Below, one piece after another: positions 4,736-29,941 of a stretch of DNA of 46,892 bases (the first letter of the stretch is position 1; every line of letters begins with the position of its first letter). This stretch comes from Pseudomonadota bacterium (lineage in GTDB: Bacteria > Desulfobacterota > JAPLJL01). The DNA is taken from positions 1-46,892 of the forward strand of contig JAPLJI010000058.1 of NCBI GenBank assembly GCA_026388655.1, written 5' to 3'. The position numbers and the translations under genes are program-made. The notes under the pieces were generated by a model. The model made no database searches. It had not been told where the DNA came from and saw nothing but the letters and a program-made list of their open reading frames with translations.

Positions 4736-4761
4736 GCAGATTTTAAACTCTTCATGAGAAT

Positions 4762-5916: not shown

Positions 5917-5921
5917 TTACA

Positions 5922-6034
5922 AGTCTCTGGTCTCTGGTTTCCGGTCTCTGGTCTCTGGTTTATGTTTTGGAACTTTGGTCTTTGAGCTTTAAACCTTGAA
6001 CCTTGAACCTTGAACTTTGAACCTTAAACCTTTT
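5922..6034. repeat. Period-7 intergenic tract (two unit types in succession)
   Basis: gtctctg gtctctg gtttccg gtctctg gtctctg then aaccttg aaccttg aaccttg aactttg aacctta; fills almost the whole spacer. Confidence 0.92.
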
Positions 6035-6040
6035 CATCGT

Positions 6041-6787
6041 TCATCCCGCCATCGTCAGCCCGCCGCTGACGCTCATCACCTGGCCGGTAATGTAATTGGA
6101 CAGCGGCGAGGCGAAAAACAGGACCGCGTCAGCGATCTCTTCCGGCCTGGCCACCCGCCGGAAAGGAATAGCTTTTTCCAGGGCCTGGACCACCTTGTCC
6201 GGCTGGGCCCGTAGAAGCGGAGTATCCGTCGGGCCCGGGCATATACTGTTCACGTTGATATTGTATCTGGCCACTTCCCGGGCCAGGGACTTGGAAAATG
6301 CGATCACCCCTCCCTTGGCCCCGGCATAAACGGTTTCCCCCAGGCTTCCCACCCGTCCGGCGTCGCTGGCGATATTCACGATCTTCCCCGCCTGTCTCTC
6401 GATCATCGGGTCCAGAACCGCCCGGGAGCAATGGATCACCCCCATCAGGTTGATCGCGATAACCTTATTCCAGAATTCCGGCTTGGTCTCGACAAAAGGC
6501 TGGATCTGGTCCCAACCCGCGTTATTCACCAGGATCTGAGCGTTACCCAGGGATTCCGTTGCTCTCCTGGTCGCTTCCTCCACTGACTTCCATTCCGCCA
6601 CGTCAACCTTGAAGGCCTCCGCTTTCCGGGAAAGCTTCCGGATTTCCTGGACCGTGGCCTGGGCATTCTCAAAATTCAGATCAAAAACGGCCACCTCCGC
6701 CCCGGATTCCGCCAGTTTCAAGCAAATCGCCTTCCCGATCCCCTGCCCTCCGCCGGTCACGATTGCTACTTTACCTTTTAAGTCCAT
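6041..6787 (-). CDS. Short-chain dehydrogenase; resembles 2-hydroxycyclohexanecarboxyl-CoA dehydrogenase (BadH)
   Basis: VTGGGQGIG, NNAGWD, YAGAKGG; NIASDAGRVGSLGETVYAGAKGG, ICPGPTDTPLL and SVSGGLTMAG recall BadH (from memory, not searched). Confidence 0.85.
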   Translation of the reverse strand: MDLKGKVAIVTGGGQGIGKAICLKLAESGAEVAVFDLNFENAQATVQEIRKLSRKAEAFKVDVAEWKSVEEATRRATESLGNAQILVNNAGWDQIQPFVETKPEFWNKVIAINLMGVIHCSRAVLDPMIERQAGKIVNIASDAGRVGSLGETVYAGAKGGVIAFSKSLAREVARYNINVNSICPGPTDTPLLRAQPDKVVQALEKAIPFRRVARPEEIADAVLFFASPLSNYITGQVMSVSGGLTMAG

Positions 6788-6866
6788 ATGTCCCTCCCGC
6801 TGAATTTCTTGTTTCGGTTTTCTGGTTTTGGGTTTAGAGTTTGCTTTGAACTTTGGGCTTAATTAT

Positions 6867-7661
6867 TTATTTTCCTTTAAATTGAGGTTTTCTTTTGTTC
6901 ACAAAAGCGTCCAGTCCTTCCCGGGCGTCCCCGGTCCGGAGCACCTCCAGGAATTCCTTAAGTTCAAGCTTCAGCCCGTCCTGGATGGGCAGATCCAACC
7001 CGATGCGGACGCATTTTTTTATCGCCGCGATGGCCAGGGAAGCCCGCCCCGCCAGTTCGCCGGCGAATTTCAGACTCTCGGCCCGGAGCGCCTCCGGCTC
7101 GTAAACCCGGTGGACCAGGCCGACCGCCAGGGCCTCGTCCGCGGAGAGGGCCTTGCCCATAATCATAAGTTCCAAAGCCCTAGCCTTGCCGATCACCCGG
7201 GAAAGGCGCTGGGTCCCACCCGCCGCCGGGAAAAGGCCGATGTTGGCCTCGGGCAGACCGACCGTCGCTTTCCCCCGGGACATGAAGCGGAAGTCACAGG
7301 CGAGGGCGAATTCCAGACCCCCTCCCAGGGCGTGGCCGCTGATCACCGCGATGGTCGGCTGGGGCAAAGCCTCGAAACGGCTGGTAACCTGCTGGAGGCG
7401 GGAATCGTAATTATCCATAAATTTTACCAGTTCCTCTCCCTCACGGGCATGCATCATTTTTATATCCGCCCCGGCGATGAAGACCTTCTCCACTTCGCTT
7501 ATGATCGCCACGGCCCGGACATCCTTGTTCTTCTCCAATCGGTCCAGGACCCGGTGAAACTCCTCCACCAGCTCCAGGTCCAGGGCATTGGCCGGCGGCC
7601 GGTTCAGGATCAGCCTGGCCACCGCCTGTTCGGTTTCCACCCGGATATAATCTTTAGTCAT
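6867..7661 (-). CDS. Enoyl-CoA hydratase (crotonase family), both catalytic Glu present
   Basis: GHALGGGLEFALACDFRFMSRGKATVGLPEANIGLFPAAGGTQRLSRVIG aligns to the crotonase motif with Glu at both catalytic positions. Confidence 0.92.
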   Translation of the reverse strand: MTKDYIRVETEQAVARLILNRPPANALDLELVEEFHRVLDRLEKNKDVRAVAIISEVEKVFIAGADIKMMHAREGEELVKFMDNYDSRLQQVTSRFEALPQPTIAVISGHALGGGLEFALACDFRFMSRGKATVGLPEANIGLFPAAGGTQRLSRVIGKARALELMIMGKALSADEALAVGLVHRVYEPEALRAESLKFAGELAGRASLAIAAIKKCVRIGLDLPIQDGLKLELKEFLEVLRTGDAREGLDAFVNKRKPQFKGK

Positions 7662-7760
7662 GGCTGCGCCTCTTACAGTGTCGGTGTCGGTGTCAGTGTC
7701 AGTATTTTCACTCGAGACTCGCAGGCTAAAGCCTGCGGTTACCCTTTTTTTCCCTTCCTT

Positions 7761-7800
7761 CTAACCCTGAACCTCTGAACCGTGAACCTTGAACCCTGTT
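7761..7800. repeat. Period-7 intergenic tract
   Basis: aaccctg aacctctg aaccgtg aaccttg aaccctg, adjacent to the stop of the 7801-8610 gene. Confidence 0.88.
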
Positions 7801-8610
7801 TTATTTAAATTTTCCGTCCCGCCATTTAATGGCTTCCTTGATGCCTTTTTCGGCCAGGATCTTCCAGAACTCAATCACCGGGGGAGAGAAATGGGAGATG
7901 GAATCCAGCTCGCAGGCCGCTTGCACAACATTTTTCCATCCCATCTCTTCAACCACCCTGTTGATCAAGGCCTTGTTCAGGGCCAGAAGCTCATCCGGAA
8001 CCAGGGCCATCCGGCCGGCCAGTTTTATCACCTCTTCCTCGAGTTTGTCGGCCGGGAAAGCCTTGAGCGCCAGGCCGATCCTCTCCGCCTCCCGGCCGTC
8101 AATCTGGTCGCCGGTGAAAAGCATCCGCTTGGCCCACTGGGGACCGACGAGGTAGGCCCACATCGGGGTCAACGGCAGGCCCAATCCCCGCACTCCGGGA
8201 TGACCGAACCTGGCGTCCTCGCTCGTGAGGATGATATCGCAGGCCAGGGCGAGATCGGTCCCGCCGCCCAGGCAGTAGCCGTGAACCTGGGCGAGGACCG
8301 GCTTCTTCAGGTTCCAGATCTTCATCCAGCGTTCCGAAACTTTTTCCAGCCGGGATTTGTCTTCCAGAATCGTCCGCTGGCGGGTGGCCACTTCCCCCCC
8401 CGGTTCGATATCGTATCCGGAGGAAAAGCCCCTTCCCGCCCCCTTGATCACGCAAACCTTGACCCGGGGATCATTTTCCCCTTCTTTCAGGGCGCGGACG
8501 AGTTCTTCCTGGAGATTAATACTCAGGGCATTGAGCTTGTCGGGGCGGTTCATCGTAACAACCAAGACCCCGTCTGGATTCGCGTTGCAGATGATATCTT
8601 TGTATTCCAA
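7801..8610 (-). CDS. Crotonase-superfamily protein lacking the canonical catalytic Glu pair
   Basis: GYCLGGGTDLALACDIILTSEDARFGHPGVRGLGLPLTPMWAYLVG: family motif present, GGGxE is GGGTD and PE is PG. Confidence 0.87.
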   Translation of the reverse strand: MEYKDIICNANPDGVLVVTMNRPDKLNALSINLQEELVRALKEGENDPRVKVCVIKGAGRGFSSGYDIEPGGEVATRQRTILEDKSRLEKVSERWMKIWNLKKPVLAQVHGYCLGGGTDLALACDIILTSEDARFGHPGVRGLGLPLTPMWAYLVGPQWAKRMLFTGDQIDGREAERIGLALKAFPADKLEEEVIKLAGRMALVPDELLALNKALINRVVEEMGWKNVVQAACELDSISHFSPPVIEFWKILAEKGIKEAIKWRDGKFK

Positions 8611-8681
8611 TCAACCTCCAAAGATAAGTTTACCCATCAAATAATGTTGGCAGCAAAGCATGGGTCAAAAAAAAGAATTCC

Positions 8682-8784
8682 GTCATCCCTGCGAAAGCAG
8701 GGATCCAGGAAATTCTTAGAAACTCTGGATTCCCGCTTCCCTCCGGGCAGTAGGCCCTACTGGGCCGGAGGCCGCGGGAAAGAC
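8682..8784. repeat. GTCATCCCTGCGAAAGCAGGGATCCAG...TCTGGATTCCCGC palindromic repeat with a nested 30-bp palindrome
   Basis: Nested ctccgggcagtaggccctactgggccggag at 8741-8770 inside the second hairpin. Confidence 0.8.
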
Positions 8785-8890
8785 AACACATAACAAATTG
8801 GTTCCCAAATAACGAATAATTCATTGAAGAATCGAGAGCAAAAAGGATTCCCAGGTTCGAGGGTCATGTGTTCCAGAATTATTTTTTTGA

Positions 8891-8930
8891 AGAATCCTTG
8901 AACCCTTGAAACCTTGACCCCTTGAACCCT
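8891..8930. repeat. Period 7-9 intergenic tract
   Basis: aatccttg aacccttg aaaccttg accccttg aaccctta, ends at the metH-like stop. Confidence 0.88.
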
Positions 8931-11326
8931 TACTTATTCAATCTTTCTTTGATTTTGCTCGCCGCTTCAATCGCGTCCTTCGCATAAAGATCAGCCCCGA
9001 TTTTCCTGGCGAATTCCTCGTTTACCACCGCCCCGCCGACCGCGGTCACGAGTTTTTCCCCCTGCTCCCGGAGGAGTTTAACCACTTCCTCCATCCTTCC
9101 CATCGTGGTGGTCATCAGCGCCGACAGGCCCACGGCCTCAGCTTTTTCCGACCGGGCGGCATCCAGGATCTTTCCCGCCGGCACGGATTTGCCTAGGTCG
9201 ATTACCTGGAAACCATTGGCTTTCAGCACCGCGCCCACCAGGTTTTTCCCCAGGTCGTGAATATCACCCTCCACGGTCGCGAGAATGATCTTCTGTTTTT
9301 TCGCCATTTTATCCGCGGGCAGATGTTTTTCCACCATCTCCAGGGCGGAAGCCATCGCCTCCGCGGCCAGCATCACCTGGGGGAGAAAGATCTCGTTCCG
9401 GCCGAAACGGTCGCCCACCTGCTTCATGGCGGGGAGGAGCTTTTCCTCCACCACTTTCAGCGGTTCCATTCCCGAGCCGACCAGGCGTTTCACCTCTTCA
9501 TTTAATTTGTCTTTTTCCCCGGAGGCCAAATAACGGTAAAAAATATCCTCGATTTTCGCTTCCTCCCGGGACCCCGCGAAAAATCTTACGTATTTACCCG
9601 CGGCCGGGTCCTTGCCCAGAAGCAGTCCGGAGGCGGCCAGGACCCCCCGGGTTTCCCGGTTGGCGGGATTGGCGAAAAACGCCTCGGCGCCCTGGGCTAA
9701 AACCATCGCCAGGAAATTCGCGTTTAACACGGTCCTTTCGGGAAGACCGAAGGAAACATTGTCCACCCCCAGGATCACCGGCAGTTTCAGCCGGTTCCGG
9801 ATCAGGGAGATCGTCTTCAGCGTGGCCTGCGGCCCTTCCGGGGCGGCCGAAACCGCCAGAACCACCGGGTCGATGATCAGGTCCTCGGCCGGGAACTGGT
9901 GCTGGCGGAAATACGCCTTGATCCTCCGGGCCAAGCGGAGCCGGCCCTCGGGTTTTTCCGGGATCCCCTTCTCGTCCAGGGCGATTCCCACCACCGCGGC
10001 CCCGTATTGGCGGGCGAGTTTCAGGATCGCGGAAAGTTTCCGCCGGTCGGCCGAAACCGAATTGATCAGGGCTTTGCCGTCCACAGCCTGCAAGCCGGCT
10101 TCGATCACCCGGGGATCGGGGGAATCAATCAGGACCGGAAGCGTGCTGGCTTGGTTGACCGCGAAAACCGCCTTTCCCATCAGCCGGGAATGGTCGGTCG
10201 AACCTTTAATCCCCACGTTCACGTCCAGGAGATCCGCGCCTTCTTCCTCCTGCTTCCTGGCTTCCTGCCTGACCTCCCTGAACTCTTCCCGGGCCAGTTC
10301 CTCCGAAAGTAATTTCTTCCCGGTCGGGTTGATCCTGCTCCCGGCGAGAAAAGGAGCGTTCTCCCGGTTGATTACCAGGATCCGGGTGCGGCTGGCCAGT
10401 TTGAGCCCGGGGACAACCCTTCGGGAAGCGGCTCCGGGTTTAAATTTCTTAACCGACTCGGCGATCTTCTGGATATGTTTGGGGTTGGTTCCGCAGCATC
10501 CCCCGAAAACCCTGATCCCGAGCGCGAAGGCTTCCGGGACTACCTCGGCCATTTCCTCCGGGGCGGCGGGATAAACGGTCACTCCGTTCTTCAGCACCGG
10601 GATACCCGCGTTGGCCTGGAAGATGAGGGGCAGGCGGGTATAAACCGACATTCGTTTCAGAATTCCCAGCATTTCTCTCGGCCCATACCCGCAATTGGAA
10701 CCGACCACATCCACCCCGATTGATTCGAGAATGATCGCGGCCGCCTCGGGAGAGGTGCCGAGAACAGTTCTTTCCCCTTCGCTGAAGGTCATCATCGCGA
10801 CGATCGGCTTCCGGGTCAGGCTCCGGACGGCCACCACCGCCGCCTTCAGCTCACGGATGTCGGAAAAGGTTTCCAGGTGAAATAGATCGGCGCCTCCGGC
10901 CAGCAGGGCCCGGGCCTGTTCAGTGAAGATCTCCACCGCTTCGGTGAAGGTCAGTTCTCCCAGGGGTTCGACGAACTTCCCCGTCGGCCCGATGGAAGCC
11001 GAAACCAGGGAGATTTCCTTCCCGAGCACTTCCCGGGCAATCTCGACCGACTTCCGGTTTATCTCTTCCAGTTTGCCGGTCAGACCGTATTGGGAAAGCT
11101 TGACCCGGTTGCCTCCGAAGGAGTTGGTAACCATTATCTCCGCCCCCGCGTCGAGATAAGCCCGATGGACCTTCGCCACCAGCTCGGGCCGAGCGAGGTT
11201 AAGTTCCTCCGGAAGTCCTCCCGGCTGGAGGCCCAGTTCCTGCAACATCGTCCCCTTGGCCCCGTCGAGAATCAGGATCCTCCGCTTAATCTCTTTTCGG
11301 AAATCCAGCGTTTTCCTTGCCTTCAT
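8930..11326 (-). CDS. MetH-type cobalamin-dependent methionine synthase: homocysteine, pterin and B12-binding domains, no C-terminal AdoMet reactivation domain
   Basis: LDGAKGTMLQELGL, GSNCGYGPREML, GGCCGTNPKHIQ (Zn Cys motifs), RINPTGKKLL (pterin), EGDIHDLGKNLV (DxHxxG B12 motif), ends at 798 aa. Confidence 0.9.
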   Translation of the reverse strand: MKARKTLDFRKEIKRRILILDGAKGTMLQELGLQPGGLPEELNLARPELVAKVHRAYLDAGAEIMVTNSFGGNRVKLSQYGLTGKLEEINRKSVEIAREVLGKEISLVSASIGPTGKFVEPLGELTFTEAVEIFTEQARALLAGGADLFHLETFSDIRELKAAVVAVRSLTRKPIVAMMTFSEGERTVLGTSPEAAAIILESIGVDVVGSNCGYGPREMLGILKRMSVYTRLPLIFQANAGIPVLKNGVTVYPAAPEEMAEVVPEAFALGIRVFGGCCGTNPKHIQKIAESVKKFKPGAASRRVVPGLKLASRTRILVINRENAPFLAGSRINPTGKKLLSEELAREEFREVRQEARKQEEEGADLLDVNVGIKGSTDHSRLMGKAVFAVNQASTLPVLIDSPDPRVIEAGLQAVDGKALINSVSADRRKLSAILKLARQYGAAVVGIALDEKGIPEKPEGRLRLARRIKAYFRQHQFPAEDLIIDPVVLAVSAAPEGPQATLKTISLIRNRLKLPVILGVDNVSFGLPERTVLNANFLAMVLAQGAEAFFANPANRETRGVLAASGLLLGKDPAAGKYVRFFAGSREEAKIEDIFYRYLASGEKDKLNEEVKRLVGSGMEPLKVVEEKLLPAMKQVGDRFGRNEIFLPQVMLAAEAMASALEMVEKHLPADKMAKKQKIILATVEGDIHDLGKNLVGAVLKANGFQVIDLGKSVPAGKILDAARSEKAEAVGLSALMTTTMGRMEEVVKLLREQGEKLVTAVGGAVVNEEFARKIGADLYAKDAIEAASKIKERLNK

Positions 11327-11373
11327 TGATTTTCCCCGAAGGAAATTTTGTTTGTTACTCCTTAATATATTTC

Positions 11374-11426
11374 CCTCTCTACTATCTACTATCTACTCTC
11401 TACTATCTACTCCGTGCTCCCTACTG
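11374..11426. repeat. Period-7 intergenic tract
   Basis: tctacta tctacta tctactc tctacta tctactc cgtgctc cctactg, 3 nt from murI stop. Confidence 0.92.
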
Positions 11427-11429
11427 TTT

Positions 11430-12275
11430 TCAGCGGAGCGAAACCTTGCTGACCTTCGGGATGTCTCTCTGGAAAAATCTTTGGCCGACCCGACGGAATT
11501 TTTCCGGGTTGTCGGTCACATAAAAACGCAACCGGCCGGAATCCTTTTCCCGGGCCAGGCCGGTCCGGTCCAGGAGTTCTTTCACCTCCTGGGCGGTCTC
11601 CACCGCCGAATCAATCAACCGCGTTTTTTTTCCCATCACTTCCTGAATTACCCCCTTGAGCAGGGGATAATGCGTGCAACCCAGGAGCACCGTGTCCGGG
11701 GTCCGGGCCTTTAAATCCCGGAGATAATGCTCGGCCGTGAGCCGGGCCACTTTGTCTCCCACCCACCCTTCTTCCGCCAGCGGGACAAAAAGTGGACAGG
11801 GAACGGAGGTAACCCTGGCCCGGGGATTCAGGGAAAGGATGTATTTCGAGTAAGCCCCGCTCCGGACGGTAGCCTCCGTTCCGAGCACCCCGATCCGGCC
11901 GGATCGGCTGGTTTCCACCGCGGCCCGGGCACCCGCCTCCACCACCCCCAGGATGGGAAAGGAAAATTTCTTCTGCAACTTGGGCAGGGCGATCGCCGAG
12001 GAGGTGTTGCAGGCCACCACAATCAGCTTGACCCCGAAGTTCATCAGGAAAAGAACGTTCTCCTCGGAATAGCGGACAATGATCTCGGGGGAGCGGACCC
12101 CGTAGGGAACCCGGGCGGTATCGCCTAGATAAATCATCTCCTCTCCCGGGAGGAGCTCCACGAGTTCCTTGAGCACCGTGAGCCCCCCGATCCCGGAGTC
12201 GAATACTCCGATCGGCCGGTTCGGTTTTATTGCCGGAATTGAAATCATCATTTTCTCCTTAAAAAGATTGCCCAC
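11430..12275 (-). CDS. murI: Glutamate racemase
   Basis: PIGVFDSGIGGLTVLKEL, YLGDTARVPYG, VACNTSSA, LLGCTHYPLL. An AAGGAG before the internal ATGATG suggests the real start is near 12251. Confidence 0.94.
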   Translation of the reverse strand: MGNLFKEKMMISIPAIKPNRPIGVFDSGIGGLTVLKELVELLPGEEMIYLGDTARVPYGVRSPEIIVRYSEENVLFLMNFGVKLIVVACNTSSAIALPKLQKKFSFPILGVVEAGARAAVETSRSGRIGVLGTEATVRSGAYSKYILSLNPRARVTSVPCPLFVPLAEEGWVGDKVARLTAEHYLRDLKARTPDTVLLGCTHYPLLKGVIQEVMGKKTRLIDSAVETAQEVKELLDRTGLAREKDSGRLRFYVTDNPEKFRRVGQRFFQRDIPKVSKVSLR

Positions 12276-12278
12276 AGC

Positions 12279-12767: not shown

Positions 12768-12772
12768 TGTTG

Positions 12773-13675: not shown

Positions 13676-13807
13676 AAATCTCCTTTCGAGAAAAAATATT
13701 CCTTATCTTCCACGATTATGCAACTTTCAATATGAAAATATCTTCATCCTCCCCTTTATCCCCTCCCCTCAAGGGAGGGGATTTTCAATTCAACTGACTT
13801 TTAAAAT

Positions 13808-13905
13808 TCCCCCTCTCCCCCTCGTGAGACTCGTCCAGAAGGCTCGCCCTGAAGGAGAGGGCGGCCTGCCCGCCATAGCCTTGGCGGAGGCGGGGGGTGA
13901 GGGGG
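13808..13905. repeat. CCCCCTCTCCCCCTC...GGGGGGTGAGGGGG repeat with nested palindrome
   Basis: Nested ggcctgcccgccatagccttggcggaggcggg at about 13863-13893. Confidence 0.78.
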
Positions 13906-13919
13906 CCAAGCAATTGATA

Positions 13920-17674: not shown

Positions 17675-17888
17675 CGGTTGTTAACCTATTGATAACTCTA
17701 AAATAATTCAGGTTCGGAAATAAGAATAGAAATTGAATCAGACGGGGAAAAACCTAATCATTTTCACTAACACCCTCCGTTTTTATGATTAGGCTTTCCC
17801 GAATTTTTGTCAATCGGGCAGACACATCATTTGCCTTTGAAAAATTATAAACGGCGGAAAGAAAACCAAAGAAATTAAGTCGGGGTAA

Positions 17889-17944
17889 ACGCTTTGCGCT
17901 TTGCGCTTTGTCCTTTAACTTTTAACTTTTAACTTTTCACCCTT
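17889..17944. repeat. Period-7 intergenic tract
   Basis: cgctttg cgctttg cgctttg tccttta acttttaa cttttaa cttttca. Confidence 0.9.
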
Positions 17945-17993
17945 CGACTCACGAGCGTTCGCTCAGGGCTTGCAGGGCAAGCTTTTCACTTCT

Positions 17994-19019
17994 TTATGGC
18001 GGGCCGGACATCGGTTCGACCACCTCGACCTGGATCTCCGCCACGGTCTGGCCCCCCTTGGGCTCTTTCTCAACCTTGTCTCGGACAACGAGATAAACCG
18101 GATAAAAACCGGGATCCTTGGGAGTAGTCCATTGCACTTGATCCAGGTTGTCATCCTCCAATCTGCCCTTGAGTATCCACCAGCGGTAGGAAAGCAGATC
18201 AACTTCATCCGGATCTATCGCTTGAGCTATGAGGGTTACCTTTTCTTCGGGCTTGGCCCGGAATCTTCCGGGAGTACCTTCCGGAACCGCGGGGGGCGCG
18301 GAGATCGTCTGGATGATGGGATTGTGATTCACGGTTGGATTTTCACTCGCCTTGACCGACTTGGCCGCGAGGTCATATTTCCCGGGCACATCCTGCCCCT
18401 GGATCACTGCGGCCAGGGTGGCGGCGGAATCGGCCGCCAGCAGGAATACGCTGTAAGGAATAAATTTCCCCTCCGGTGGCTTCCGGTCCGGGAGCTGAAT
18501 CGTCCAGGGATTTCCCTCTCCGATCATAATCTCGCACCCCGGGGTCTCGGGACACTGGGCCAGGAAACCAACCAGGTCCGAGAGGTTGAAATTGTTTAAA
18601 TCAATATTGAGATCGATCGCCGCGCTGGGATCCAGGTAGAAAAAAACCCAGTAATAAACCATCTGGTCATTCCCGGTTCCCCAGGTTTCGGGATCCACGG
18701 CGGTAGCCTGAAAGGTTACCGAGTTTCCGGGACCGGCCTCCGGGGGATCGGCCACGATGGAGATTATCTGCACCCTCCGGATCTTCCCGAGGGTGTCCCG
18801 GATATCCGCCCCGCAGGCCATCAAAACCAGCAGACCGCAGGCAACGCAAAACACCCCGCGGACCGCCCAACCCCGGCAGCCAATTATTATCCGGTCTAAA
18901 AGGGTTCGAGGGGGAAAAAGATATGGTTCAAGGACTCCGTCCCGTAGGACTACGTCCCGGAGAGGTTCGATGGTTCGCTCACGCTTTTGATTCTTCATTT
19001 CTAACTTCTCACTTTTCAC
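17994..19019 (-). CDS. Hypothetical lipoprotein with Ig/PKD-like repeats; true start uncertain
   Basis: CVACGLLVLMACG lipobox; two modules resembling VTFQATAVDPET...YYWVF and VTLIAQAIDPDEVDLLSYRWW. Confidence 0.68.
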   Translation of the reverse strand: MKSEKLEMKNQKRERTIEPLRDVVLRDGVLEPYLFPPRTLLDRIIIGCRGWAVRGVFCVACGLLVLMACGADIRDTLGKIRRVQIISIVADPPEAGPGNSVTFQATAVDPETWGTGNDQMVYYWVFFYLDPSAAIDLNIDLNNFNLSDLVGFLAQCPETPGCEIMIGEGNPWTIQLPDRKPPEGKFIPYSVFLLAADSAATLAAVIQGQDVPGKYDLAAKSVKASENPTVNHNPIIQTISAPPAVPEGTPGRFRAKPEEKVTLIAQAIDPDEVDLLSYRWWILKGRLEDDNLDQVQWTTPKDPGFYPVYLVVRDKVEKEPKGGQTVAEIQVEVVEPMSGPP

Positions 19020-19036
19020 TTCTAACTTCTAACTTC
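18997..19036. repeat. Period-7 tract between the lipoprotein start and TonB receptor stop
   Basis: ttctaac ttctcac ttttcac ttctaac ttctaac ttcctca. Confidence 0.92.
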
Positions 19037-19037
19037 C

Positions 19038-21371
19038 TCAAAACTCCGCCTTCATCCCCATGAAGGGAAGGATCGGGATCCAGTATATCTCCCGGGGATC
19101 GGTCCAATCATCCGCATAGATAATCCCGATGACATTTTTATGCAGGTAAACGTTCTGGATCTCGAGATAACCCGAGAGTTTCCAGGTCTGGTAGAGCCAT
19201 TGCCTTTCAATCCTCACGTCGAGGCGCTGGTAATCCGAAAGCTTGGCCGAGTTGAGTTCGCCGTCCGGCCTGGGGTACCAGAGGTCCCAGTCGGCGTCGT
19301 AGAAGCCGGGCTTGAGCGCCGTGTAATGCATCCCCGACTGGTACCGCCACTGGGCTCCGACGTTCCACTTGGAGGAAAGCTGGTAATTCAGCACCAGGGC
19401 GATCGAGTGGGGCTGTTCAAAGGTGGAGGGTGACCATTTCCCCTGTCCCGGCCACCAACGCTTGGAATGGGTGTAGGAATAGGTCAGCCAGCCGAAGAAT
19501 CTCTGGGAAAGCCGGTGCCGGAGAAAAACCTCAACGCCGGTGGCGTAACCTTTACCCCGGTTATTGAATTTCACCACGGGATCCTCGGCCACCATGTTCT
19601 GGTAATCTTTGTAGTAACCCTGGATATCGAGGGAAAGGTTTTTCCCGAACTCCTTCTCCGCCCCGAATACGTAATGGACGATCCGGGTGGGATCGATCTC
19701 AGGATTCCCCACCGGGTCGAAAAACTGCGCCGGCAGGGGGGTCTGGTAGTAAAACCCGAAGGCCCCCTTGAGCTTGAGGCCCGGGATGATCTGGTAATGG
19801 AAGCGGAAGCGCGGGGAGAGATTCAGTTCGTCGAGGATCTGGACATAATCCATCCGGAACCCGGGAATGAGCTTGAATTTCCAGAGGCTGATTTCATCCT
19901 CGAGCCACACCCCGCCGGCCGCGGTTCCATCGTTGTAATTGGTGGGAAGCCGGTTGGCGAAGGTGGCGTTGGGAGGAATCGTATCCTCCTCCGTCGGCAC
20001 CTGGATCACCTGTCCCTCCACCCAGTAATCAATGTAAATGAAATCCACCCCGATCCGGAAACGGTTCCGGGCCGGGAGATCCCACTCCAGGCATCCCCTC
20101 ATCCCGGGGGTCCGGAACCGGGAATCGATATAGATATCGCGATTGAGGTCAATGTAGGCGCGGTCAACCGAATTGAAAGCGGCCAGCCGGAGGGAAAGCC
20201 GGGGGGTAAGCAGTGAACGCCAGTTGAGAACCTGGACATGAAAATCCAGCTCGGTGTTCATGTTCCCGGTCAGGACCGGGTCATTCCGGTTTTCCAGGTT
20301 GGTGCGGGCAATCATGGTATCCGCCGAACCGTAGGAGAACAGGCTCAGCTTGTTTCTCTCGTTCAGATCCCAGGTCACCTTGGCCTGGTAATCCCAGAAG
20401 CGGGGGTAAATCGAGAGTTCATCGCTCGAAGGCAGCGGGAAAACGTCCAGGTAGCTTCTTCTTCCGGAGAGGAAAAACGAGCCTTGTTTGGAAATCGGGC
20501 CTTCCACCTGGCCGCTGGCCAGGAAAAAGTTCACGTCCGCCTTGGCCCCGATTCGGTCCCGCCTCCCCTCCCGGGTGGTGATATCCAGCACCCCGCCGCC
20601 GACAAAACCGTAATCCGGCCCGAACCCCCCGGCGAAAAAGCGGATGTCTTCGATCATGTCCGGGTTGATCGTGCTGTACCAACCCCCGAAGTGGAAAAGA
20701 TTGGCCACCGGGGCCAGGTCCATGATGATGAAGTTTTCATCCGGGCCTCCGCCCCGCACGAATAGCGCCCCGGAAAGGTCCACCCCCCCGCTGGTCACCC
20801 CCGGAAGGGTTTGCACGGAGCGGATGATGTCCCCGGAGGTGCCCGCCACCCTCTCGGCCTCGACCTTCTGCAGGACCTGCTCGCTGACCTGGCGCTCCCG
20901 CCGGGATTCGACCACCACCTCCATCAGGGAATAGAAACTTTTCTCCAGGTAAACCGTGAGAGTCTTTTCCTCCCCCGGTTGGAGTTTGACCGCGGCCGGT
21001 CCCGGTTTCTTGAAATCCACCATCACCACGGAGAGCTGATAGTCCCCGGCCGGAACGGTTAACGAAAAAACGCCTTTTTTGTCGGCCAGGGTGTATTCAC
21101 CGGTGGGCAATAAAAAAACGCTCGCCCCTTCGATCGGTTTCCGGGTGCCTTTTTCCAGGATCCTTCCCCGGATTACCCCGGTCGGGATCGCCTGGGTCGG
21201 AGCCGCCGGATAGGCGGGAATAATCCCGGAGGTTTCCGGAACCGGGTAGGTTTCCGGAACCGGGTAGGTTTCCGGGCTGGGATAGGTTTCCGACCGCGCC
21301 GACAAGCTGGCCGCGGCCACCAACCCGGCGGCCAGGGCAAAAACCGCGATCCGGGAGATCAGGCTTTTCAT
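19038..21371 (-). CDS. TonB-dependent outer membrane receptor with N-terminal carboxypeptidase-regulatory-like domain
   Basis: Signal peptide; GVIRGRILEKGTRKPIEGASVFLLPTGEYTLADKKGVFSLTVPAGDY; plug DIIRSVQTLPGVTSGGVDLSGALFVRGGGPDENFIIMDL; beta-barrel ending in aromatic-rich strand. Confidence 0.93.
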   Translation of the reverse strand: MKSLISRIAVFALAAGLVAAASLSARSETYPSPETYPVPETYPVPETSGIIPAYPAAPTQAIPTGVIRGRILEKGTRKPIEGASVFLLPTGEYTLADKKGVFSLTVPAGDYQLSVVMVDFKKPGPAAVKLQPGEEKTLTVYLEKSFYSLMEVVVESRRERQVSEQVLQKVEAERVAGTSGDIIRSVQTLPGVTSGGVDLSGALFVRGGGPDENFIIMDLAPVANLFHFGGWYSTINPDMIEDIRFFAGGFGPDYGFVGGGVLDITTREGRRDRIGAKADVNFFLASGQVEGPISKQGSFFLSGRRSYLDVFPLPSSDELSIYPRFWDYQAKVTWDLNERNKLSLFSYGSADTMIARTNLENRNDPVLTGNMNTELDFHVQVLNWRSLLTPRLSLRLAAFNSVDRAYIDLNRDIYIDSRFRTPGMRGCLEWDLPARNRFRIGVDFIYIDYWVEGQVIQVPTEEDTIPPNATFANRLPTNYNDGTAAGGVWLEDEISLWKFKLIPGFRMDYVQILDELNLSPRFRFHYQIIPGLKLKGAFGFYYQTPLPAQFFDPVGNPEIDPTRIVHYVFGAEKEFGKNLSLDIQGYYKDYQNMVAEDPVVKFNNRGKGYATGVEVFLRHRLSQRFFGWLTYSYTHSKRWWPGQGKWSPSTFEQPHSIALVLNYQLSSKWNVGAQWRYQSGMHYTALKPGFYDADWDLWYPRPDGELNSAKLSDYQRLDVRIERQWLYQTWKLSGYLEIQNVYLHKNVIGIIYADDWTDPREIYWIPILPFMGMKAEF
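21232..21292. repeat. Three 18-bp coding tandem repeats in the TonB receptor N-terminus
   Basis: tttccggaaccgggtagg x2 and tttccgggctgggatagg encode ETYPSP ETYPVP ETYPVP just after the signal peptide. Confidence 0.9.
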
Positions 21372-21396
21372 GTTATTTCAATTCGGTCAAACCCAA

Positions 21397-22086: not shown

Positions 22087-22095
22087 GCCTAAACT

Positions 22096-22506
22096 TCATT
22101 CCCCTTCGACGTTGATGGCAAACTTGGCGACGCCTTCTTTTTTCAGGAGATCCACGATATGAATCACCCGGCCGTGATAAACCATCTTATCCGCCCCGAT
22201 GATCGCGTTGAGCCGGGACCCCTCCTCCCTCTTGGCCCGGACAAAAGTGGCCAGTTTCTCCTCGTCGATGGGTTTGCCGTTCAGGAAAAGTTTCCCCTGC
22301 GCGTCAATCACCACCGCGATGTTGGAGATGGGGGTCGGCTCGCCGGTGGTGGCTTTGGGCAGATCGACGTTGATCGAGGGAGACATTAGAAAGGTAGCCG
22401 TCACCATGAAGATGATCAAAAGCACCAGGATGATATCCACCAGCGGGGTGATGTTTATCCCGGTAATGGGCTGGTCCAGTTCGTTGAGTTCTCCGTTGAC
22501 CTTCAT
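22096..22506 (-). CDS. exbD: ExbD/TolR family biopolymer transport protein
   Basis: INITPLVDIILVLLIIFMVTATFLMSPSINVDLPKA. Confidence 0.93.
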   Translation of the reverse strand: MKVNGELNELDQPITGINITPLVDIILVLLIIFMVTATFLMSPSINVDLPKATTGEPTPISNIAVVIDAQGKLFLNGKPIDEEKLATFVRAKREEGSRLNAIIGADKMVYHGRVIHIVDLLKKEGVAKFAINVEGE

Positions 22507-22571
22507 GGATAATGCCGGTTGGCTCTAGGGAACGGTTCTGGCTCGAGGTGAGTTGCGGGGAAACTCCCCGG

Positions 22572-23216
22572 CTACCGGGAAATCTTTCCTTTCTCCCCGG
22601 CTTCGGAAAAATTGATTATCACCTGGGAAATCCTCTCCAGGTTTCCCGCCGCCCGCCTGACCTTGCCGATAAATATGTTGTAAGCGATAACCGCCGGGAT
22701 CGCGACGAATAACCCGATCGCGGTGGCCAGCAGGGCCTCGGAGATACCCTGCATCACCACGCTCGGCCCCCCCACCTGGCTGATCGCCAGGTCGTGGAAA
22801 GCCCGGATGATCCCCAAAACGGTGCCGAACAGTCCGATGAAGGGAGCGTTATTGCCCAGGGTCCCGAGAAAAGCCAGGTACTTCTCCATCCCGATCCTCT
22901 CCTCCACCCTGGCCCCGGCCAGTCTCTCTTCTAACACCGCCTGTCCCCGGGACATGTTGTGGAAGCCGGCCAGGGCCACCCGGCCTTCAAAGCCACCATA
23001 GCGCTCGGCCAGTTTTCGCGCCGGCTCGACTTCCCCTCTGGACAGATAATCGGAAAGCTCATCCAGGAAAGGGTTGATTCCCTTGGATTCCTTCCGGAAA
23101 AAGAGATGACGCTCGATCATCACCGCGATCGAAAACACGCTCAGGAAAAGCAGGAGATACAATACCCACTTGCTTCCGACCAAAGTGATTGCCAGCAATA
23201 TCTGCGTGATGCTCAT
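22572..23216 (-). CDS. exbB: ExbB/TolQ (MotA-type) proton channel protein
   Basis: LAFLGTLGNNAPFIGLFGTVLGIIRAFHDLA, GISEALLATAIGLFVAIPAVIAYN. Confidence 0.94.
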   Translation of the reverse strand: MSITQILLAITLVGSKWVLYLLLFLSVFSIAVMIERHLFFRKESKGINPFLDELSDYLSRGEVEPARKLAERYGGFEGRVALAGFHNMSRGQAVLEERLAGARVEERIGMEKYLAFLGTLGNNAPFIGLFGTVLGIIRAFHDLAISQVGGPSVVMQGISEALLATAIGLFVAIPAVIAYNIFIGKVRRAAGNLERISQVIINFSEAGEKGKISR

Positions 23217-23364
23217 ATAATTTATTTTATCTTATTTCCGGAAAGCTTAAACCCCGTGTTAGTATACGGCAATATCTTAACTGACGGAATATCAGGTCCT
23301 GATCTGTTTTTTAGCCTTGACAAACACCCGGTGAGGGTAATATTACAAGTAATCAGGGAAGCAT

Positions 23365-23712
23365 ATGGCCATCAACCAGAAGAAATACATCAAGCTTTTT
23401 CGAACCGAATCCCTCCCCCACCTGCAAAGGATCAAGGATTGCGCCGACAAGTTATCCCGGGGCGAGGGAGAAGCCGCGGCCTGTTTTAATCACCTGGGGA
23501 AAAGCTACCATTATTTAAAGGGAGCCCTCGGGCTGATCGGCCTGAAAGAACTCCGGGATGAAGCGGTCCGGATGGATAAAATCCTGAAGGAAATAAACTC
23601 CGGCAGCCGCCCGGCCACGCCGGAAGATATCAGCGAATTTTCCCGGGTGGTGGACCTGATTCGGGAAACGGTGGAAAAAGCCGCCCAGGCCCCCGATAAT
23701 CCTCCGGCCTGA
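23365..23712 (+). CDS. Small stand-alone HPt-like (histidine phosphotransfer) protein
   Basis: FNHLGKSYHYLKGALGLIGLKELRDEAVRMDKILKEI contains H-x-L-K-G followed by G-L..L pattern as in HPt/CheA P1 domains; divergent from exbB. Confidence 0.6.
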   Translation: MAINQKKYIKLFRTESLPHLQRIKDCADKLSRGEGEAAACFNHLGKSYHYLKGALGLIGLKELRDEAVRMDKILKEINSGSRPATPEDISEFSRVVDLIRETVEKAAQAPDNPPA

Positions 23713-23745
23713 AAAAGACCATGGAAATCTGGTTACCAGGATAAT

Positions 23746-23794
23746 GAAAATCCCCCTTCACCCCCCTTTTGACAAAGGGGGGCCTGGGAGGATT
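23746..23794. repeat. Palindromic repeat aaatcccccttcacccccctttt-gac-aaaggggggcctgggaggattt
   Basis: Inverted repeat between two convergent genes; could also act as a bidirectional terminator. Confidence 0.75.
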
Positions 23795-23825
23795 TAGAAT
23801 TTAGAATGTTGAACCTTGAACTGTC

Positions 23826-25643
23826 TTATCCCTTTTCGCTTTTAAACAGCTTAAGCTGTTCCTGCACCTCGGGATAATCGGGCTGAAATTCCAGGGCCTT
23901 GCGGAAATAGGATTTGGCTTTTTCATTCTGTCCCTGGGACTTGTAAATCACGCCCAGGTAATAATAGTTTCTGGCGTTTTTAGGCTCGAGCTTGATGGCC
24001 TGCAGAAAACAGCTCTCCGCCTTGGGGATATCGGGCTTGTGCCGGGAAAATTCCAGCGAATGCACCAGGCCCATGCCGGTATAAAACTCGGACCGGGAAG
24101 GGTCGAGCTTCAGGGCCTCCTCGAAAGCCGCCAGGGCCTTGGCATACTGTTGTTTCCCGAACAACTGCTTGCCTTTCTTGAAATGATCCTGGGCCCGGTT
24201 CAGGGCCTCCTCCGCGTCCTCGGTCTTCGGCTGGGCATCCAGCTTCTCGCGCACGTCTTTCTGGGTTTCCCAGGCCGCGTCCAGTTTCTTCTGGACCAGG
24301 TTCTTTTCTTCTTCCACGGCGGTCAATTTCTGCTTGAACTCGTCCTGCTTGGTCTCCGCGCGCGCCACGGATGATTTCAGCTGGTTGATCTCCTGGGCCT
24401 TGGTTTCCCGCTCGACAATCACCGCCTCCAGGTCCCGCTCGATCTCCTTGAGTTTCCGTTCGAAACCCTCGTTCAACACGCCGATTTCATCCATCAGCGC
24501 CTCTTTCTCGGCAATCAGGGACACGCCGTAATCGGACGATTTCCGGAGCTCAAACTCGAGGTCATCCAGCTGCTTCTGCAGGGCCTGGTTTTCTTCCTTT
24601 AACTTCGCCGTCAGGGCTTCCTGGTTTTTTAGTTTATCCAGGGTGGACCCGATTTTTTCCAACAGGGCCTCGTTTTCCCCCACCTCCAGCCCCGAGGACT
24701 GCGCCGTTTTTTTCAACTCTTCCTCGAGCCCCTGCTTGGAGATCAGCGACCTCTGCGCCAGCTGGGACAGGTTCTCCTTGTCCTCCTCCTGTTCCCGGAT
24801 TCTATCCTGGAGTTCATTCATCTCGGCCCGTAAAAGCTTGTTCCGGACTTCCTCGTCTTGAAATCTCTTCTGCAGGCCTTCCCGCTCGCGGTTCCAGTTT
24901 TCCTCTTTCTGGGACTGCGATTCCTTTAATTTATTGATGGCCTGCAGGGTTTTTTCCCGGAGTTGGTCGAATCTCTGTCCCAGGTCCCGGTTGTGCTGCT
25001 TCTGCCGCTCCAGTTCCTCCCCGGAAAGTTTCCGTTCGCTCTCCCATTCCTCTTCCCGGCGGCGGAAATCCCGGGCTTGCTTGTCCAGCTCGGCCTTGTC
25101 TTTCTCCACCTGGGCCAGGCTTTTCTTGAGCTCGTTGATTTCCCCGGTGACGATCCCCCGCTCGTAGGCAAAGGACTCTTCCAGCTCGGCGATCCTTTCC
25201 TCTTTCTCCTTGGCCTTGGTCTTCCACTCCTCCGCTTCCGTTTCTTTTTCCTTGCGCTTCTGGATCTCCTCTTCCAGGGCGGTTTCCTCCGAGAGCTTCT
25301 TCTCGATTTCCTTACGCTTGCGGGCCTCCTCCTCGAACTCTTTCTCTTTTCCCTTCCGGAAGGCGGTCTCCTCCGAGAGCTTCTTCTCGGTTTCCCTGCG
25401 CTTGGCGGTTTCCATGTTCAGGGTCCGGGCATTCTCGGCGAGTTCTTCCTCCAGCTTGGCCAGCATCCCCTTTTCCGTCTCCAGCTCGGCCGTGAGCTTC
25501 TGGGTCTCGCCGGTCAGCGCCTTCAGCTTCTCTTCGATCAGGTTTTCTTCGGCCTGGTGAAGGTTCTTGAATCTTTTCAGGAAATTGTCGGAGGCTTCCG
25601 AGATCGACTGCGGTTCTTTTTCTTTATCCGCCTTGGCGGGCAT
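23826..25643 (-). CDS. Long coiled-coil protein with C-terminal TPR repeats
   Basis: About 450 aa of Glu/Lys-rich heptad sequence followed by AEEALNRAQDHFKKGKQLFGKQQYAKALAAFEEALKLDPS and ARNYYYLGVIYKSQGQNEKAKSYFRKALEFQPDYPE. Confidence 0.85.
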   Translation of the reverse strand: MPAKADKEKEPQSISEASDNFLKRFKNLHQAEENLIEEKLKALTGETQKLTAELETEKGMLAKLEEELAENARTLNMETAKRRETEKKLSEETAFRKGKEKEFEEEARKRKEIEKKLSEETALEEEIQKRKEKETEAEEWKTKAKEKEERIAELEESFAYERGIVTGEINELKKSLAQVEKDKAELDKQARDFRRREEEWESERKLSGEELERQKQHNRDLGQRFDQLREKTLQAINKLKESQSQKEENWNREREGLQKRFQDEEVRNKLLRAEMNELQDRIREQEEDKENLSQLAQRSLISKQGLEEELKKTAQSSGLEVGENEALLEKIGSTLDKLKNQEALTAKLKEENQALQKQLDDLEFELRKSSDYGVSLIAEKEALMDEIGVLNEGFERKLKEIERDLEAVIVERETKAQEINQLKSSVARAETKQDEFKQKLTAVEEEKNLVQKKLDAAWETQKDVREKLDAQPKTEDAEEALNRAQDHFKKGKQLFGKQQYAKALAAFEEALKLDPSRSEFYTGMGLVHSLEFSRHKPDIPKAESCFLQAIKLEPKNARNYYYLGVIYKSQGQNEKAKSYFRKALEFQPDYPEVQEQLKLFKSEKG

Positions 25644-25768
25644 TTTCCCCTCCTAAAAAAATCTCATGACGATTTACGCGGGCGATTGGATTCCGGTACA
25701 TTATATATATGGTAATCTTTTTACGAAAATGATCAAATATTCAAGGATTAACAGCTAAGTAAGCTCAG

Positions 25769-27205
25769 ATGGAAAAAATTGTCACCCGCTTCGCGCCCAG
25801 CCCCACCGGCACCCTCCACCTGGGAGGAGCCCGGACGGCCCTGTTCAATTTTCTCTTTTCCCGGCACCACCAGGGCAAGTTCATCCTCCGAATCGAGGAT
25901 ACCGACCGGACCCGGTCCACCGATGAGTATATCCAGGATATCCTTGAAGCCCTCACCTGGCTGGGAATCCAGTGGGACGAAGGGCTTTATTACCAGAGCC
26001 AGCGGATGGAGCTTTACCACCAGAACGTCGAGCGCCTGCTTTCCGAAGGCAAGGCCTACCGCTGTTACTGCACTACCGAGGAGCTCGAAGCCCGGCGGCA
26101 AATCGCCCTGGAAAGAAAGGAAAACACCCGCTACGACGGTCACTGCCGGGACCGCCAGGACCGTCCGGATCTGCCTTATGTCGTCCGGTTCCGGACCCCC
26201 CAGTCCGGGTCCATCTCCTTTACCGACCTGATCCACGGCCCGATCACCTTCGTCAACTCCGAGCTGGACGACCTGGTCATTATCCGGGCGGACAAAACCC
26301 CGACCTACAACTTTTCCGTGGTGATCGACGACGTGGACATGGGAATCACCCACGTCATCCGGGGCGATGATCACATCAACAACACCCCCCGGCAGGTCCT
26401 GATTTACCAGGCCCTGGGTTTCTCGCCTCCCCTTTTCGCCCACCTCCCGATGATCCACGGCGCCGACCGGACCAAGCTTTCCAAACGCCACGGGGCCACC
26501 GCAGTCATCGAATACCGGAAAGACGGCTATCTCCCCCAGGCCATGGTCAATTACCTGGCCCGCCTGGGCTGGGGCTTCGGCGACCAGGAGATCTTCTCCC
26601 CAGACGACCTGATCGGGAAATTCGATCTGAAAGATGTGAGCAAGTCCGCCGCCATCTTTAACCCCGAGAAACTGGTCTGGCTCAACCACCAGTACCTGAT
26701 GAAGGAATCCAATGAGGGGCTGATCGAGCTGGCCCGTCCCTTCCTCGACCCGGCCGCGGGCAAGCTTCCCGGCGAATCCCTGCTTAAAGTCGCCGAAATC
26801 TTCAAGCCCCGGGCTAGAACCCTGGTCGAATTCAACGAGCAATCCCGTTTTCTTTTCTTGGACACGGTCGAAACCGATCCGGAGGCGGCTCAGAAATTCT
26901 TTACCCCGGATGTCAAAAACCTCTTTTACGAGCTGATCCGGAAATTAAAAGAAGTCCCGGCCTGGAAAGAAAAGGAAATCGAAGATGTCTTCCGCAATAT
27001 CGTCCAGGCCCGGGGGATAAAAATGGCCAAAATCGCACAGGCGGTGCGGGTCGCCCTGACCGGCAAAACCGTGAGCCCGGGTCTTTTCGAAATCATGGGG
27101 ATCCTGGGCCAGGGAAAAACCCTCCAGCGGATCGAATCTGCGCTGGACAAAATCCCTTCTGCACCCCCCTCCCCCTCGGAGGGGGGAGCGCTGGGGAGAG
27201 GGTGA
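25769..27205 (+). CDS. gltX: Glutamyl-tRNA synthetase
   Basis: VTRFAPSPTGTLHLGGARTALFN, LRIEDTDRTRS, KLSKRHGA (KLSKR motif). Confidence 0.95.
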   Translation: MEKIVTRFAPSPTGTLHLGGARTALFNFLFSRHHQGKFILRIEDTDRTRSTDEYIQDILEALTWLGIQWDEGLYYQSQRMELYHQNVERLLSEGKAYRCYCTTEELEARRQIALERKENTRYDGHCRDRQDRPDLPYVVRFRTPQSGSISFTDLIHGPITFVNSELDDLVIIRADKTPTYNFSVVIDDVDMGITHVIRGDDHINNTPRQVLIYQALGFSPPLFAHLPMIHGADRTKLSKRHGATAVIEYRKDGYLPQAMVNYLARLGWGFGDQEIFSPDDLIGKFDLKDVSKSAAIFNPEKLVWLNHQYLMKESNEGLIELARPFLDPAAGKLPGESLLKVAEIFKPRARTLVEFNEQSRFLFLDTVETDPEAAQKFFTPDVKNLFYELIRKLKEVPAWKEKEIEDVFRNIVQARGIKMAKIAQAVRVALTGKTVSPGLFEIMGILGQGKTLQRIESALDKIPSAPPSPSEGGALGRG

Positions 27206-27269
27206 TTGAACCTCCTCGCGGCAGAGACCGCGGGATATCTTTCTTAAAACGATTCTTAGGCTCTGGGTT

Positions 27270-27362
27270 GTCATTCCCGCCCTTCGACTACGCTCAGGAT
27301 AAACTCCAGCGGGAATCCAGGCGAACAAAAAATACTAGATTCCGCATCAAGTGCGGAATGAC
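27270..27362. repeat. GTCATTCCCGC...GCGGGAATCCAG...TAGATTCCGCATCAAGTGCGGAATGAC palindromic repeat with nested insert
   Basis: Terminal GTCATTCC/GGAATGAC; first hairpin loop contains CCCTTCGACTACGCTCAGGATAAACTCCA. Confidence 0.82.
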
Positions 27363-27410
27363 GGGACAAGGTAACCCCGTGGCAAAACTATGAGGAATTA
27401 CAAGTTAAAA

Positions 27411-28094
27411 ATGATTAACCGATTACTTGCTGCTTGTTGCTTGCTACTATCTGTTTTCCTAATCTCCGCTTCTCCCGCTGAAGTCCCGCGCTGGCTTGAC
27501 CAGTTCCAACCCCGGGACGAAGGCAAATTCCCATCTAATTGGAAAAAAATTCAGGGGCGGGCCGACATCTACACCGTCCAGGTCGAAGCCGGAAACTCAT
27601 ACTTGGCCGCCCGGGCCGACCATGCCGCCGGAATGATCCTCACCGAGGCCAAGGTCAGCCCGAAGGATTTTCCGAAATTAAAATGGCGCTGGCGGGCCAA
27701 AAAACTCCCGACCGGCGCGGATGAAACCGGCAAGAACGGAAAGAATGACTGCGCCGCGAGCGTCTATGTCGTTTTCGATAAAGGGATGACCAAGTACACC
27801 AAGGATACCTTGCGATATGTCTGGAGCGCGTCTTCCCACCCCCGGGGGATGATCCTCAAGATGAAGAATTACGTTTACTATGTGATCCAGGAAAACCGGG
27901 AAACGCCCTTCGACCAGTGGGTCGAAGAGGAGGTCAATTTTCAGGAAGATTACCGGAAACTATTCGGAAAAGATCCGCCCCCCGTCATGGCCATTGGGGT
28001 TCAATCCGACGCCGACGACACCAAATCACAGTCCTGGGCCGATTACGACGATTTTGTTCTGATCCCCGCTGATAAATCCAATTCCAAACCATAA
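27411..28094 (+). CDS. DUF3047 family secreted protein
   Basis: Signal peptide MINRLLAACCLLLSVFLISASPA; LKWRWRAKKLPTGADE...DCAASVYVVFDKG...LRYVWSASSHP...AIGVQSDADDTKSQSWADYDDFVL. ORF track starts at 27390. Confidence 0.78.
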   Translation: MINRLLAACCLLLSVFLISASPAEVPRWLDQFQPRDEGKFPSNWKKIQGRADIYTVQVEAGNSYLAARADHAAGMILTEAKVSPKDFPKLKWRWRAKKLPTGADETGKNGKNDCAASVYVVFDKGMTKYTKDTLRYVWSASSHPRGMILKMKNYVYYVIQENRETPFDQWVEEEVNFQEDYRKLFGKDPPPVMAIGVQSDADDTKSQSWADYDDFVLIPADKSNSKP

Positions 28095-28180
28095 TTTTGC
28101 TTCCGTTGTTGCCCAATTTATTGGGCGAATTGTAAGCCACCAGTCATAACCGTTATAGAACAAATATATCGGCAGACAGA

Positions 28181-28249
28181 TTGTAATTTGTTTGGAATTT
28201 GGGATTTGGGATTTGTTTGGTAATTGGAGCTTGGTAATTGGAATTTGCT
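28181..28249. repeat. Period-7 intergenic tract
   Basis: aatttgg gatttgg gatttgtttgg taattgg agcttgg taattgg aatttgc, ends at the stop of the 28250-29941 mutase. Confidence 0.9.

Positions 28250-29941
<1,692 letters not shown>

Follow-up and report, generated by a model that had tools for sequence, protein, structure and literature searches.

Heptad repeat tracts of changing unit past stop codons in a genome of the Desulfobacterota

Introduction

Spacers between the genes of a bacterium of the Desulfobacterota (assembly GCA_026388655.1) carry degenerate tandem repeats with a period of seven nucleotides: these tracts gather mostly just past stop codons, they are usually purine-rich there in the mRNA sense, and they often persist at orthologous gene ends in relatives while the repeat unit changes. 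They are described here starting from one contig of 46,892 nt (JAPLJI010000058.1; the window), in which an earlier note, made from the sequence alone, had pointed them out. The tracts belong to a known class, the long simple heptanucleotide repeats, called short tandemly repeated repetitive sequences (STRRs) in cyanobacteria; what is new is the purine- and G-skewed polarity at stops, fading with distance, and the replacement of units at orthologous sites that are kept. Our best reading is that the arrays are born by slippage and undergo turnover of their units, with a bias tied to the untranslated RNA past the stop codon. We give this reading a probability of about 45%; the tie to RNA is the part of it that we infer.

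Results

The source genome (3.56 Mb in 194 contigs, estimated 94.4% complete) was sampled as 60 stretches totalling 0.93 Mb, namely the window, which is contig 19, and L009-L067; G002, from the same genus, was read over 0.97 Mb for comparison, along with parts of another such genome, G001. Gene calling combined a simple open reading frame (ORF) search with a 3-periodic Markov scorer, which gives exact stops and approximate starts. When 544 spacers (172 kb) of the source genome were set against dinucleotide-preserving shuffles, identity at lag 7 was 0.304 in the spacers and 0.259 in the shuffles (z = 41); the signal returns at its harmonics, 14 and 21, and the excess at neighbouring lags is far smaller. 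Tract counts at lags 5, 6, 7, 8, 9 and 10 were 0, 1, 152, 20, 13 and 0, and the shuffles held none at lag 7. Chance is thereby excluded, and the excess over shuffled spacers that the earlier note had proposed to look for is there.

The tracts are tandem 7-nt units above expectation and mainly intergenic, as heptanucleotide long simple sequence repeats are: the roughly 0.72 Mb predicted to be coding in the stretches sampled from the source genome hold only 17. Density was taken solely from source contigs picked by number, because some source stretches had been selected for matching the first tract; 39 tracts in 249 kb correspond to some 560 per genome. About one quarter of spacers of at least 60 bp hold a tract. 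G002 has 188 tracts at lag 7, and no tract occurs in 50 kb of E. coli K-12. An assembly artefact is ruled out by three separate assemblies of one genus and by Nostoc plasmid records, all of which carry tracts; restriction to a single assembly, which the earlier note had named as a possible undoing, thus does not apply. G002 also has a second class of spacer tract, of period 9, with 63 members (for example CTATGGACA, at L168 and other loci) against 13 in the source genome.

Placement was scored by counting tracts within 15 nt of a gene boundary. Among the 108 tracts that the source genome has in spacers between codirectional genes, 44 are this close to a stop, against 19.9 (SD 3.9) expected from uniform placement, and 16 lie this close to a start, where 19.6 are expected: there is no excess at starts. 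The same holds for G002, with 58 tracts near stops (21.4 expected) and 9 near starts (21 expected). The enrichment next to stops that the earlier note had anticipated is therefore found twice. Tracts also lie nearer to the end of the upstream ORF than to the next start, by 67 to 41 in the source genome (p = 0.016) and by 93 to 45 in G002. Where genes converge, so that the spacer has a stop at each end, 21 of 26 tracts (source) and 21 of 36 (G002) lie within 15 nt of a stop, for expected values of 10.1 and 9.9, and in divergent spacers just 4 of 25 and 4 of 23 tracts are as close to a gene.

One explanation of this placement is neutral: heptamer slippage would occur at large and its products survive where the spacer is least constrained, in the 3' flanks of genes, because promoters and ribosome-binding sites are absent from them. 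Starts are indeed unenriched or avoided, and the long repeats of many prokaryotes are most often heptamers (Mrazek 2007, as related in PMC4679880 and PMC4692102). Yet convergent spacers have no promoter side, and tracts there are still within 15 nt of a stop at twice the uniform expectation; nor does tolerance explain the strand polarity described below. We consider neutral survival quite unlikely.

The purine-rich strand of a tract is strongly related to its distance from the stop, a feature absent from the earlier note. With both genomes pooled, the purine-rich strand is the mRNA-sense strand in 36 of 38 tracts that overlap a stop and in 49 of 55 at 0-10 nt, together 85 of 93. Further out the fraction is 12 of 15 at 10-30 nt and 13 of 17 at 30-60; at 60-100 nt it is 20 of 32, and between 100 and 200 nt it is 16 of 45. 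The purine and G bias in the mRNA sense thus weakens with distance from the stop. Tracts at gene ends have GC skews of +0.32 and +0.34 and AT skews of +0.20 and +0.34 in the two genomes; in the 60 nt that follow tract-free stops the skews are between about 0 and +0.06. In convergent spacers the purine strand tracks the nearest gene, on whichever side this lies, for 34 of 47 tracts within 40 nt (p = 0.003), so the chromosome strand is not the cause of the bias. A replication-strand bias was also rejected on the ground that tracts are independent of the majority gene strand. Convergent spacers show a left/right asymmetry as well, 44 against 18; it changes sides once the sequence is turned round, which rules out an artefact of the detector, and since contig direction is arbitrary we treat it as chance. 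Beyond the genus, polarity was tested in one Candidatus Aminicenantes genome with few tracts (L075, L244-L273), and the switch recurs there: 8 purine-sense tracts against 3 on the stop side, 2 against 9 on the start side (p = 0.03).

Single tracts are predicted to fold no differently from their shuffles. Inverted purine-pyrimidine pairs have predicted folding at z < -2 in 10 of 22 cases, and a T-rich stretch follows in just 6 of the 22. Intrinsic terminators, with a hairpin followed by a T run, were accordingly rejected as an identity for the tracts.

Orthologous spacers of the source genome and G002, both of at least 60 bp, were compared pair by pair. A tract is present in both members of 19 pairs, in the source only in 12, in G002 only in 16 and in neither in 46, so that presence is conserved (odds ratio 4.6, p = 0.0014). 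In a first set of pairs, the distance between the units of orthologous tracts is no smaller than that between random pairs. All 7 pairs whose tracts share a gene end have kept their polarity, some with related units and others with wholly different ones. The spacer behind the racemase gene has TCTACTA in the source genome, GCCCTTT/GCCCTAT in G002 and GCTCTTT/GCTCTCT in G001; at L024 8490-8698 the words are entirely different, CAATCGT in one genome and GAACGTT in the other; and at L058 6554-6635 and its G002 counterpart in L165 the lengths, 82 and 75 bp, differ by exactly one 7-nt unit. Comparison of orthologous spacers, another check suggested by the earlier note, thus finds the tract conserved and the unit mostly not, which fits an ongoing process and not the decay of one element. 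Separately, a segment of about 4.2 kb stands twice in tandem in G002 (C41:7528-16511) and once in the source genome (L024:10305-14576).

Conservation of this kind is also what the chief rival of our reading, a selected 3' untranslated element, would give. A purine-rich, weakly structured heptad array would serve a role tolerant of sequence, with period, place and polarity selected while the letters drift. Presence and polarity are kept at orthologous gene ends despite changed units, polarity is graded with distance from the stop, and the units have a weak common consensus, TGMNCTY (AAGNKCA-like in sense), for which a rotation- and strand-free profile gives a log-likelihood ratio of 38, where letter-shuffled units give 15.6 +/- 3.6. 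Set against this are the empty majority, three quarters or so, of spacers of at least 60 bp, the want of a common theme among the genes that flank tracts in the window, the patchy distribution of tracts in the phylum, and the shuffle-like folding of single tracts. We judge a selected element unlikely; its role might be the protection of mRNA 3' ends, protein binding or spacing against read-through.

The repertoire of units is restricted. The earlier note held that the unit differs at each site; that is so in part, and the period and position are indeed shared by sites with no unit in common, but 188 tracts use only 75 distinct units, where 171 would be expected from units drawn at random with equal composition, and they take their units from a list shared across the phylum. 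The commonest units, rotation and strand ignored, are AATCGTC, AAAGTTC, AACCTTG, AAAGGTC and AAAGCGC; few recurring units contain GGG (TTTCGGG is one), and stop codons within units follow no clear rule. Identical units recur in 45% of cases in the phylum's other families, whose sampled stretches span 43-71% GC and in many cases have no tracts, against 7% for letter-shuffled units; with other phyla such sharing is weak (16% against 8%). Within a tract, units may drift by steps, as from GACCTTT through GAGCTTT and GCCCTTT to GCGCTTT (L060 3569-3677), or form near-perfect blocks, as in (GAGACCA)7 followed by (GAGACAA)6 (L011 3278-3373). Two further arrangements may be recorded: at L056:18538-18784 a 42-nt tandem repeat inside a predicted ORF has several ATTGACG-type heptads per unit, and in a long spacer at L055:6116-6485 four identical 28-nt heptad strings (CATTCGTCATTCGTCAATCGTAATTCGT) are set mostly about 119 nt apart.

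A short word list invites the idea of dissemination, in which heptad arrays, often as inverted purine...pyrimidine pairs, would be copied among loci by transposition or gene conversion and so spread the list. The smallness of the list and its exact sharing across families are in keeping with this, as are multi-unit strings such as AAAGCTCAAAGGTGAAAGGTCAAAG that recur at separate loci, and neighbouring tracts of opposite polarity stand in purine-then-pyrimidine order 70 times against 20, opposite-strand pairs being known from Xanthomonas and Geobacter too (PMC4692102, PMC2700814). But units vary inside one tract, orthologous sites hold different words, and we saw neither defined ends nor target-site duplications, nor was a reverse transcriptase found; dissemination appears distinctly improbable. 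Templated synthesis, which the earlier note had raised, was sought through the enzyme it would need: telomerase-like or diversity-generating synthesis of heptads would combine a constant step with variable content, as observed. No RVT_1 match, for a reverse transcriptase of telomerase, diversity-generating retroelement or retron type, was obtained in the source genome at its estimated 94.4% completeness, although 3 of 14 control genomes do match, and the idea has very little left to commend it.

The individual tracts of the window, all on the minus strand, illustrate these features. GTCTCTG on the plus strand (CAGAGAC in mRNA sense) occupies 5923-5968, adjoining the start of an acyl-CoA dehydrogenase gene (4762-5916), and GAACCTT/GAACTTT (AAGGTTC in mRNA sense) occupies 5973-6032, 8 nt past the stop of an SDR gene (6041-6787). 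A weak TTTCGGT tract at 6812-6835, with degenerate units on to about 6860, lies 6 nt off the stop of a crotonase gene (6867-7661); G002 has a related, longer tract in its orthologous spacer. AACCCTG/AACCTTG, with one 8-nt step, follows at 7763-7798, 2 nt past the stop of the second crotonase gene (7801-8610), and a related tract of period 8, GAACCCTT, at 8892-8931 overlaps the stop of a gene with homocysteine S-methyltransferase and B12-binding domains (8930-11326). At 11375-11425, TCTACTA/TCTACTC (TAGTAGA in mRNA sense) is 4 nt past the stop of the Asp/Glu racemase gene (11430-12275). Two adjoining tracts, CGCTTTG then TTTAACT, at 17890-17945 are 48 nt away from the stop at 17994, and CACTTCT/TAACTTC (GAAGTTA in mRNA sense) at 18987-19036 is 1 nt past that of a gene with CarboxypepD_reg domains (19038-21371). 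A short tract at 23789-23821, in which AATTTAG turns into GAACCTT, is 4 nt past the stop of a TPR gene (23826-25643); a degenerate ATTTGGA/ATTTGGG tract with several indels (28181-28249) adjoins that of the second methylmalonyl-CoA mutase gene (28250-29941); and a weak tract of period 8, AAGGCTTC, at 132-161, with degenerate units on to about 185, lies in the spacer ahead of the stop at 189.

Tandem Repeats Finder returned period-7 arrays at 5923-5959 (GTCTCTG), 5992-6032 (AACCTTG), 7763-7798 (AACCCTG, one indel), 11378-11411 (TCTACTA), 17890-17910 (CGCTTTG), 17914-17937 (TTTAACT) and 18999-19036 (TTCTAAC), a short one at 23792-23807 (ATTTAGA, 2.3 copies only), and weak ones at 6812-6835 and 28191-28247 (69% matches). 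The period of 7 claimed by the earlier note was thereby borne out at the sites it listed, except at 8892-8931 and 132-161, where the period is 8. Its placing of the tracts beside minus-strand stops was likewise correct in position: for stops whose low ends are 6041, 7801, 8930, 11430, 19038, 23826 and 28250, the tract ends lie at 8, 2, -1, 4, 1, 4 and 2 nt, and the weak tracts lie about 4, 6 and 48 nt off the stops at 189, 6867 and 17994. It fails for the GTCTCTG half at 5923-5968, which is 6 nt from the start of the next gene. No Rfam match falls on a tract in the window, where a tRNA-Met is the sole match.

Other repeats share the window's spacers. One of about 120 bp at 4618-4736 (GGTTGCGGTTACGCAGCTCG... 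type), in the spacer 4534-4761, recurs whole or in part over 25 times in two genomes of the same genus, and a dispersed repeat of about 50-60 bp at 8679-8740, between the second crotonase gene and the methyltransferase gene, has many copies in G001 and G002. Dispersed C/G-rich, palindromic-looking repeats at 13737-13781 (CCCCTCCCCTCAAGGGAGGGGA) and 13854-13905 (CTCGCCCTGAAGGAGAGGG) recur in both genomes and resemble modules found in many spacers.

Discussion

The heptanucleotide class was known already, as were stop-proximal placement and inverted pairs for the Xanthomonas repeat GGGAATC. Mrazek et al. (2007), as cited in PMC4679880 and PMC4692102, described an excess of 7-nt tandem repeats in prokaryotes, mostly intergenic and taxonomically patchy, and proposed slippage with the 7 nt reflecting polymerase contact. 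Our tracts are alike in intergenic excess and patchiness, and differ from the heptamers so described in mixing many words into degenerate mosaics, in their anchoring at stops and in their strand polarity. GGGAATC lies on average 28 nt from the 5'-neighbouring ORF and 160 nt from the downstream one, with no strand preference; like GGGGA(C/T)T of Nostoc it is intergenic, forms inverted pairs, and occupies sites common to several species with variation in length and sequence (PMC4692102). The tracts here resemble GGGAATC in being intergenic and nearer the upstream ORF's end, in their inverted pairs and in the keeping of sites between relatives. They are unlike it in being strongly purine-sense at stops, and where the Xanthomonas and Nostoc repeats each have one G-rich unit with G-quadruplex potential, they have many units, few of them with GGG.

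They are also like the STRRs of heterocystous cyanobacteria, an unrelated lineage, in forming heptad arrays in spacers. The earlier note had contrasted the two on the ground that cyanobacterial units are fixed, a contrast that fails: Nostoc plasmids show mixed, locus-specific heptads in their spacers, with one tract (L242 12387-12419) that begins at a stop codon, and a mixture of repeating heptamers has been reported for Microcystis (PMC4679880). A BLAST search of plasmids with a heptad string of cyanobacterial type returned no match, an outcome to be expected from low-complexity filtering. The vocabulary does differ: none of 7 Nostoc units is identical to a source unit, and though 6 of the 7 are one letter off, letter-shuffled units give a similar distance. 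In Beggiatoaceae, TAACTGA forms many intergenic heptad sets just upstream of start codons, some split with a related 7-mer and some with other heptads mixed in, and heptads one base off TAACTGA are seldom repeated in the genome (PMC4679880); our units are different and show no excess within 15 nt of starts. The tandem-heptad elements of Geobacter metallireducens, a few fixed consensus families read as regulator sites or RNA elements (PMC2700814), share with the tracts the tandem heptanucleotides and some opposite-strand pairs. In the searchable literature, which for Mrazek 2007 means the papers that cite it, we came across no description of a polarity that varies with distance from the stop, nor of sites that stay in place while their units are exchanged.

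Slippage with turnover builds on features that were observed: the 7-nt period, the recurring words, the block runs within tracts, one length difference of a single unit, the crowding at stops, the graded polarity and the exchange of units between congeners. It would work as follows. Heptad arrays would arise, lengthen and be overwritten by slippage or local copying in 7-nt steps, so that the site persists while its unit changes; the step size may be set by the replication machinery, after the heptamer proposal of Mrazek and colleagues. Past the stop codon the nascent RNA would be free of ribosome cover and, where the sense strand is purine- and G-rich, could re-pair with the template in an R-loop, leaving the sense strand single and open to misaligned re-pairing at the next copying. 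This last step would supply the reason for both stop anchoring and polarity. That transcription-linked mutation at post-stop, purine-rich untranslated RNA yields ever-overwritten, strand-polarised and fast-evolving heptad arrays with a lineage-specific vocabulary is, taken as a whole, doubtful.

Several points weigh against slippage with turnover biased by untranslated RNA. The R-loop step is one that we infer, and the exact step of 7 comes from an argument in the literature. Slippage that starts from random seeds would not be expected to yield a word list common to genomes of 43-71% GC. Where both orthologous spacers bear a tract, their lengths differ by a multiple of 7 in 2 of 8 pairs, with no excess. 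Crowding at stops is absent from the Candidatus Aminicenantes genome (16 tracts near a stop, 19 near a start). Lastly, the purine-then-pyrimidine order of opposite-polarity neighbours, which the earlier note had not remarked, extends to divergent spacers; since this order is alike on both strands, the polarity may belong in part to the spacer rather than to transcription, and it is compatible with a rule of that kind that needs no transcription.

That seven-base repeats are in excess in bacteria has been documented since 2007, with no accepted cause. The source genome and its congener now add three quantitative rules, namely anchoring at stops, a purine-sense polarity that fades with distance, and the same site with a different unit in relatives, which separate transcription-linked mutation from selection, tolerance and mobile spread. 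If they hold in cultivable hosts such as Nostoc and Xanthomonas they can be tested directly, and would reveal a route by which 3' untranslated regions are rapidly rewritten.

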